From Desulfuromonas sp. (lineage in GTDB: Bacteria > Desulfobacterota > Desulfuromonadia > Desulfuromonadales > UBA2294): a stretch of 38,743 nt of DNA. The notes beneath the pieces were generated by a model. It searched no databases and was not told where the DNA came from. It was given only the letters and a program-made list of their open reading frames with translations. Shown here in pieces: positions 36,652-38,743 of this stretch (the first letter of the stretch is position 1; every line of letters starts with the position of its first letter). A program made the translations under genes and the position numbers. The stretch is taken from positions 1 through 38,743 of the forward strand of contig PKUH01000022.1 of NCBI GenBank assembly GCA_002869615.1, written 5' to 3'.

Positions 36652-36738
36652 TGAATAAAATCAGGCCAAACCTGTTGTAAGGCAGGGACGGAAAGCTGCG
36701 GGTCTAAAAACGACTTTAGATAGCCGGGCTGTCATTGT
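36652..36738 (+). ncRNA. GEMM-I (cyclic-di-GMP class I) riboswitch aptamer
   Basis: Matches the GEMM consensus, recalled from the family: CCAAACC (36666-36672), a hairpin CCTGTT-GTAA-GGCAGG (36671-36686) capped by a GNRA tetraloop, GGGACGGAAAGC (36685-36696), the tetraloop-receptor strand CGGGTCTAA (36699-36707) with its partner TAGATAGCCGGG (36717-36728), joined by a TCTAAA/TTTAGA stem (36703-36720). The usual GGGC before AAACC reads GGCC here, and the usual GACGCAAAGC reads GACGGAAAGC; these two changes are opposite (G to C, C to G). The base before them that decides c-di-GMP against cGAMP binding reads G by my alignment. Leads into the kinase gene at 36832. Confidence 0.85.
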
Positions 36739-36773
36739 GAAATATTTTTTCATATGACACCCCGGCTATTTTT
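36720..36773 (+). terminator. Riboswitch expression platform: intrinsic terminator
   Basis: Arms 36720-36735 (atagccgggctgtcat) and 36754-36769 pair in 15 of 16 positions, followed by TTTTT. The 5' arm is also the 3' end of the aptamer, so the two structures exclude each other. Ligand binding should prevent termination. Confidence 0.85.
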
Positions 36774-36831
36774 GTAGATAAGAGGCCCGTTCTCTTCAAA
36801 CCAGCAGTAAGGTCTGATCCGGGGGGGATTC

Positions 36832-38352
36832 ATGGACCTGACAAAGAGCACTCAATCACCTTTAGCCATCTCTCTGCTACAGGCATTGCCGCATCCGGCT
36901 ATGCTGATCAATCAATCCAGAGAAATCCTGGCGGCTAACAAATTGGCTTTAGAGGCTGGCGCTGTCGTCGGCCAATTTTGCTGGCAAACATTTGGTCAGG
37001 CTTCTTTTCTCACCGAAGAACATCAACAAAAACTTGATAACGGGGAAGCTGCAGGTGTTCATTGTTCCTTTTGTCGTGCTGATCCATCTCTTGAAAACCT
37101 GTGCGAAGAAAACGATCCCAGAGTCAAGGTTTTTGAAAGTATTGTCGATACCTATTGGGTTGCGATAAACGAGGAGATTTATCTTCATTATGCTATTGAC
37201 GTCACAGAACAGGTTGAAGCGCATGTTGCCAGGGATGCTGCTGAGGAAAGGCTCTGGAAAAGTCAGTTGTTGCTCAACGAAACGAGTAAAATCGGCAAGG
37301 TAGGTGGCTGGGAGCTTAATATTGATACCGGAGAAAATCGATGGACGGAAGAAGTTCATCGTATCCATGAGGTCAGCCTGGACTATGAGCCGACCCTTGA
37401 AGATGGCATTAATTTCTATTCCGTGGCATCAAAGCCGGTTATTGCGGAAGCCGTTCAACGAGCAATTGAAAATAATGAACCTTATGATCTTGAGCTTGAG
37501 ATAGTGACTGCAAAAGGCAATCTTCGGAATGTTCGTGCTATCGGTACGCCAGACCTGGAGAATAGAAGGCTTTATGGTTTTTTTCAGGATATAACGGAAA
37601 AGAAGAAACTTCAGGATGCACAACTCCGTTCGAGCCAACTCTCGGCCCTGGGGGAAGTTGCCGCCGGAGTCGCTCATGAAATAAACAACCCGATCAACGG
37701 GGTTATTAACTATGCCCAGTTGCTGATAAACAAGAATGATGTGGATGACAAGTCAAACCAGATACTTGAGAAAATCATAAAAGAGGGAAGCCGGATCTCG
37801 AATATCGTCGAAAATCTGTTAAATTTTGCCCGGAAAGATCGTGGTCTGTTTTCATACCAGGATTTAATTGACATTGTTATAGAGCCGATCAATCTGCATT
37901 CTCAGTTATGTAAAAACGATGGCATTCATATTGAGGTTGAGGTACCCGATGATCTCCCTCAAATCTACGGTAACCAGATGCAGCTTGAACAGGTGGTTTT
38001 AAACCTTCTGAGCAATGCACGATATGCTCTCAACAAAAAGTTCCCCGAGCCATCCGCCGAAAAAGTTATAGTGATTGCGGCAACACCATCAAGTTCCAAT
38101 CGAGGCGATTTTGTTCAATTGAGCGTTAAGGACACCGGTTGTGGAATCCCCAAAGATCATCTGGATAAAATCTTCAATCCGTTTTACACAACCAAGGAAA
38201 CAGGTGTTGGAACCGGGCTTGGCATGAGCGTGTCGCACGATATTCTCGAAAAGCATGGTGCGACGATCACGGTAGATAGTGAGGTCAATACGTTTACGTT
38301 GGTAACGGTTACTTTTCCGGTCAACACCCGGGAACAGGAAGCCAGAAACTGA
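36832..38352 (+). CDS. Cytoplasmic PAS-domain sensor histidine kinase under riboswitch control
   Basis: A 506-residue soluble kinase. A PAS-like domain (about 1-130) contains four cysteines (50, 78, 81 and 91; a CSFC pair). A second PAS domain (about 150-255) ends in FQDITEKKKLQDA. The phosphoacceptor helix has His282 in VAAGVAHEINNPING. The ATPase domain has the N box LLSNARYAL, DTGCGIP and TGVGTGLGMS. The kinase core is complete. The first-domain cysteines may bind a metal, a cluster or a thiol signal; this is conjecture. A ggggggg-att site precedes the ATG at 36832. Transcription must pass the riboswitch terminator. No cognate regulator is seen before the window ends. Confidence 0.92.
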   Translation: MDLTKSTQSPLAISLLQALPHPAMLINQSREILAANKLALEAGAVVGQFCWQTFGQASFLTEEHQQKLDNGEAAGVHCSFCRADPSLENLCEENDPRVKVFESIVDTYWVAINEEIYLHYAIDVTEQVEAHVARDAAEERLWKSQLLLNETSKIGKVGGWELNIDTGENRWTEEVHRIHEVSLDYEPTLEDGINFYSVASKPVIAEAVQRAIENNEPYDLELEIVTAKGNLRNVRAIGTPDLENRRLYGFFQDITEKKKLQDAQLRSSQLSALGEVAAGVAHEINNPINGVINYAQLLINKNDVDDKSNQILEKIIKEGSRISNIVENLLNFARKDRGLFSYQDLIDIVIEPINLHSQLCKNDGIHIEVEVPDDLPQIYGNQMQLEQVVLNLLSNARYALNKKFPEPSAEKVIVIAATPSSSNRGDFVQLSVKDTGCGIPKDHLDKIFNPFYTTKETGVGTGLGMSVSHDILEKHGATITVDSEVNTFTLVTVTFPVNTREQEARN

Positions 38353-38742: not shown

Positions 38743-38743
38743 G

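Follow-up and report, generated by a model that had tools for sequence, protein, structure and literature searches.

The window, a stretch of 38,743 nucleotides of Desulfuromonas sp. DNA (contig PKUH01000022.1), carries a genuine c-di-GMP-I riboswitch aptamer at 36655-36736, upstream of a histidine kinase gene. It is a known riboswitch kind with a minor variant of the ligand pocket. The aptamer, a terminator exclusive with it and the kinase gene were all found by computation. It is quite probable that they form a c-di-GMP-I riboswitch that acts as a transcriptional ON switch and controls the kinase gene with c-di-GMP as its ligand. We infer that binding occurs and that c-di-GMP is the molecule bound. 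The riboswitch would be a clean added example of a second messenger controlling the amount of a histidine kinase, and its pocket is a naturally occurring C92U version of the c-di-GMP pocket that has been studied most. The features are as follows.

36655..36736, + strand: c-di-GMP-I (GEMM-I) riboswitch aptamer, from the RF01051 match
36665, + strand: G at Vc2 position 20 (c-di-GMP-type, not the A20 cGAMP-type), RF01051 alignment column 11
36671..36686, + strand: GNRA-capped P2 hairpin with a GUAA loop at 36677-36680, from the RF01051 alignment and folding
36692, + strand: A at Vc2 position 47, the intercalating base, from the RF01051 alignment
36694..36730, + strand: P3 helix, UCUAAA/UUUAGA wholly paired, without an 11-nt tetraloop receptor, from sequence, alignment and folding
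36732, + strand: U at Vc2 position 92, the Watson-Crick partner of the ligand and usually C, RF01051 column 83
36718..36773, + strand: intrinsic terminator sharing the P3 3' strand and base 92 with the aptamer, T5 tail at 36769-36773, from folding
36821..36827, + strand: G-run, a possible ribosome-binding site before the ATG at 36832, from sequence
36832..38352, + strand: soluble PAS-like/HisKA/HATPase_c sensor histidine kinase with intact H, N and G boxes, from domain matches and sequence

Aptamer fold and ligand pocket

The original prediction had placed a GEMM-I riboswitch on this strand in front of a sensor kinase gene and had named a scan with the RF01051 covariance model as the check. 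The whole window was scanned with cmscan and Rfam 15. RF01051 (c-di-GMP-I, GEMM-I) matched at 36655-36736 (+) with a score of 63.4 bits (gathering score 35, E 2.8e-10). The match is complete (model 1-87) and is the sole Rfam match over threshold in the window. It is not a chance match, and both the riboswitch and its strand were confirmed. The P1 pairing is weak in the sequence.

Docking of a GNRA tetraloop in an 11-nt receptor on P3 is common, but not universal, in the RF01051 family. The GUAA tetraloop of the prediction does cap P2. Of its tetraloop-receptor strand, the CUAA letters are present, but the usual partner UAUG was absent from the window aptamer by sequence, alignment and fold. 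The CUAA strand lies opposite UUUAG in an uninterrupted helix. Since CUAAA is fully paired with UUUAG and UAUG is missing, no 11-nt receptor forms.

The pocket positions 20, 47 and 92 are given in Vc2 numbering. Column 83 of RF01051 was mapped to Vc2 C92 and pilM C75 via published structure contacts. The ligand contacts in the Geobacter structure 4YAZ include G74, C75 and C76 (PMC7288161), and C75 is named as the ligand-pairing base in pilM (PMC9262584). These three bases match the 'gCC' of the RF01051 consensus. GGC and UAU, as names of Rfam subfamilies, also appear to fit positions 20, 47 and 92 in the consensus of each of these subfamilies. In the RF01051 alignment, position 92 is the only conserved pocket base changed in the window aptamer. 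Compared with the Vc2 type of RF01051, the fold, G20, A47, the GNRA loop on P2, the strand and the position before a signalling gene are the same, whereas U92 replaces C92 and the 11-nt receptor is lacking.

The A20G change switches a cGAMP riboswitch to c-di-GMP, and G20 is the mark of c-di-GMP-type aptamers (PMC6456294). Membership of GEMM-Ib, the 3',3'-cGAMP riboswitch, was rejected for the window aptamer, as position 20 (36665) is G and not A. The aptamer is thus not of the A20 (cGAMP) type raised by the original prediction. Engineered changes at G20/C92 weaken c-di-GMP binding (PMC9049102), and the affinity for c-di-GMP is probably lower with U92 than with C92.

Terminator and proposed mechanism

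The segment 36716-36778 folded with -31.2 kcal/mol (z -8.3), and none of 200 shuffles equalled it. The 5' arm of the terminator is the P3 3' strand plus base 92, and U92 pairs with A in the hairpin. The segment 36718-36736 is common to aptamer and terminator. When the aptamer was forced in folding, its fold stayed within about 1.3 kcal/mol of the optimum for transcripts ending before 36760. The terminator fold was preferred by 6.5 kcal/mol at 36764 and by 13.4 kcal/mol at 36772. Because of the shared strand and the switch of fold after 36760, aptamer and terminator are mutually exclusive. This exclusion supports the direct control of the kinase gene that had been predicted, with ligand binding as a predicted step.

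The pilM riboswitch of Geobacter metallireducens is an experimentally shown ON switch, in which a terminator (T+A+H) competes with the aptamer (P+A) and the ligand-pairing C is sequestered (PMC9262584). By analogy, the exclusion in the window would be the ON design established for pilM. As in this GEMM-Ib riboswitch, the 3' aptamer strand is drawn into the terminator together with the ligand-pairing base, a U-run follows and the whole stands before a gene. The two differ in the pocket: the window has G20 where GEMM-Ib has A20, and C75 of pilM is U in the window. Of 169 GEMM-I copies from the order, 79 showed the same aptamer/terminator layout.

In the proposed mechanism, the P3 3' strand and base 92 would fold into the terminator hairpin without ligand, and transcription would stop before the kinase gene. 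With c-di-GMP bound, G20 would hold one guanine and U92 would form a G.U pair with the second. The ligand-bound aptamer would retain the P3 3' strand, the terminator would be blocked and kinase mRNA would be made. Expression of the kinase gene would probably require a cyclic dinucleotide signal. It is quite unlikely that the copy is instead decayed or constitutively OFF, its RNA made unresponsive by the weak P1, by U92 and by the high stability of the terminator. The poor P1 pairing fits such a decay, and so does the lead of 13 kcal/mol that the terminator has at full length. However, the aptamer scores well over the cut-off and keeps all conserved pocket bases but one, and the kinase ORF is intact. 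The terminator (-27.1 kcal/mol) is also mid-range among the 79 similar riboswitches of the order (-48 to -5). The original prediction was partly supported: it was right in kind and wrong on the receptor, and it was incomplete in mechanism, with U at position 92 and the terminator expression platform lying beyond its description.

The U92 variant and the identity of the ligand

One pattern in which only base 92 was varied gave about 140 C92 matches versus 10 U92 matches in 136 genomes of the order, and reversed-pattern controls gave no matches. A slightly looser pattern gave 12 G20/U92 matches in 11 of 134 genomes. The codes at positions 20, 47 and 92 among 169 copies were GAC (107), AAC (48), GAU (10), CAC (4) and AAU (0), the expression admitting only C or U at 92. 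A c-di-AMP-type A20/U92 pocket was not found. All 10 U92 copies have G20, where about three A20 copies were expected (P about 0.03, which is weak). A C21:G46 pair was seen more often among U92 copies (6 of 10) than among G20/C92 copies (21 of 107; Fisher p 0.01, shared ancestry not removed). The C20 copies are L007 (G000:C81:12038-12115), L039, L239 and L241, and L039 precedes the same cytochrome gene family as the A20 copy L005 of the window genome.

The c-di-GMP-I-UAU family (RF03168; U20, A47, U92 and a score over 65.9, the bases being read from the model consensus) was also considered. The window shares U92 and A47 with it, but has G20 where the consensus has U20, and its best clan match is RF01051. 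Other G20/U92 copies (L004, L109, L272) exceed the RF03168 cut-off.

The base at position 92 alternates at two orthologous loci in other members of the order. Upstream of a PAS-GGDEF gene, U92 occurs in L109 and L110 and C92 in L254, L256, L257 and L258. Upstream of a transglutaminase-like gene, L272, L273, L279 and L281 have U92 and L275, L276 and L277 have C92; L281 (U92), L276 and L277 (C92) belong to one genus. G20 is unchanged in all copies at both loci. Such variation at base 92 with a constant target points to one ligand common to these aptamers, with the G.U pair tolerated, and speaks against a new specificity. It suggests that U92 is tolerated in G20 aptamers, and the sensed ligand is probably left unchanged. 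Because C92 and U92 alternate at orthologous genes, these loci are a natural test of the role of the ligand-pairing base in affinity and specificity. With G20 arguing against the cGAMP (A20) subclass, the alternation makes c-di-GMP the most likely ligand.

The genome (3.08 Mb, 121 contigs) has 16 RF01051 matches. By inspection, seven have A20 and are of the cGAMP type (L002, L005, L009, L011, L012, L013, L015), and one, L007, has C at this position. Three aptamers are G20/U92, namely the window, L004 and L016. There are 16 GGDEF domains above the Pfam cut-off. Two GGDEF proteins, L154 (GHLAGS...GGDEF) and L155 (GHLVGS...GGDEF), combine an intact GGDEF motif with serine at the selectivity site of Hypr cyclases. 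The meaning of this serine and of the active GGDEF form has been described (PMC6456294), and both proteins are candidate cGAMP synthases. These two Hypr-type cyclases and the seven A20 aptamers indicate that cGAMP is probably made, and both c-di-GMP and cGAMP are likely to be present.

This leads to another reading, in which the G20/U92 aptamer prefers 3',3'-cGAMP in the reverse of the orientation found in A20 aptamers, with guanine at G20 and adenine in a Watson-Crick pair with U92. The G20/U92 aptamers, recurrent in the order, would then be an undescribed subtype reading cGAMP reversed, and the kinase would be cGAMP-induced. The probable presence of cGAMP is in its favour. U is the natural partner of adenine, and c-di-AMP is bound when the same scaffold carries both G20A and C92U (PMC7288161, PMC9049102). 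Moreover, one coat-protein-like gene family carries G20/U92, A20/C92 or G20/C92 aptamers. Nevertheless, one shared ligand explains more easily why position 92 switches between U and C at orthologous loci that keep G20 and their target, and one of the alternating targets is a GGDEF enzyme gene. Both the reversed orientation and the new subtype are therefore considered unlikely. G20 speaks against cGAMP as the ligand, and U92 keeps it under consideration.

The kinase gene and other putative riboswitch targets

The sensor kinase target of the prediction was supported. The ORF 36832-38352 encodes 506 aa with HisKA (9e-17), HATPase_c (2.5e-24) and a weak PAS_3 match, and no strongly hydrophobic segment was found in it. 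In its N-terminal region (window 36877-37185), for which Pfam gave no confident match, cysteines are clustered (FCW ... HCSFC ... LC); this region is perhaps a metal- or redox-sensing PAS-like domain. On the other strand, a short open frame enters from the contig end and faces the kinase gene, and no response-regulator gene lies downstream on the contig, which ends at 38743. The kinase gene thus looks monocistronic and orphan.

Among 58 genomes of the order, none had a kinase ortholog at the E<1e-100 level by which conservation of the riboswitch-kinase pairing could be judged. The paralog in the same genome (C69, 70%) lacks a GEMM in its locus; a genome-wide contig scan gave only distant kinases. 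Elsewhere in the order, at least three further GEMM-I copies stand in front of histidine kinase genes, namely L230 (G20), L128 (A20) and L176 (A20). The L176 kinase has dCache_3 and HisKA, and its gene ends outside the stretch examined. GEMM-I before a kinase gene is a recurrent pairing as a kind, not unique to the window.

Other copies in the genome stand upstream of receiver-domain genes (L001, L002) and a receiver-PilZ gene (L016), and several two-component parts look riboswitch-controlled. The first long ORF downstream of the G20/U92 copy L004 (1500-1579) resembles a REP-associated transposase, perhaps an insertion into a former target gene. Two aptamers are in tandem at G000:C1:30194-30391, the first L008 1501-1579 (G20) and the second L011 1501-1579 (A20). 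Each is followed by a terminator-like hairpin, and a large secreted-protein gene lies downstream. Two-input control by c-di-GMP and cGAMP is possible at this locus.
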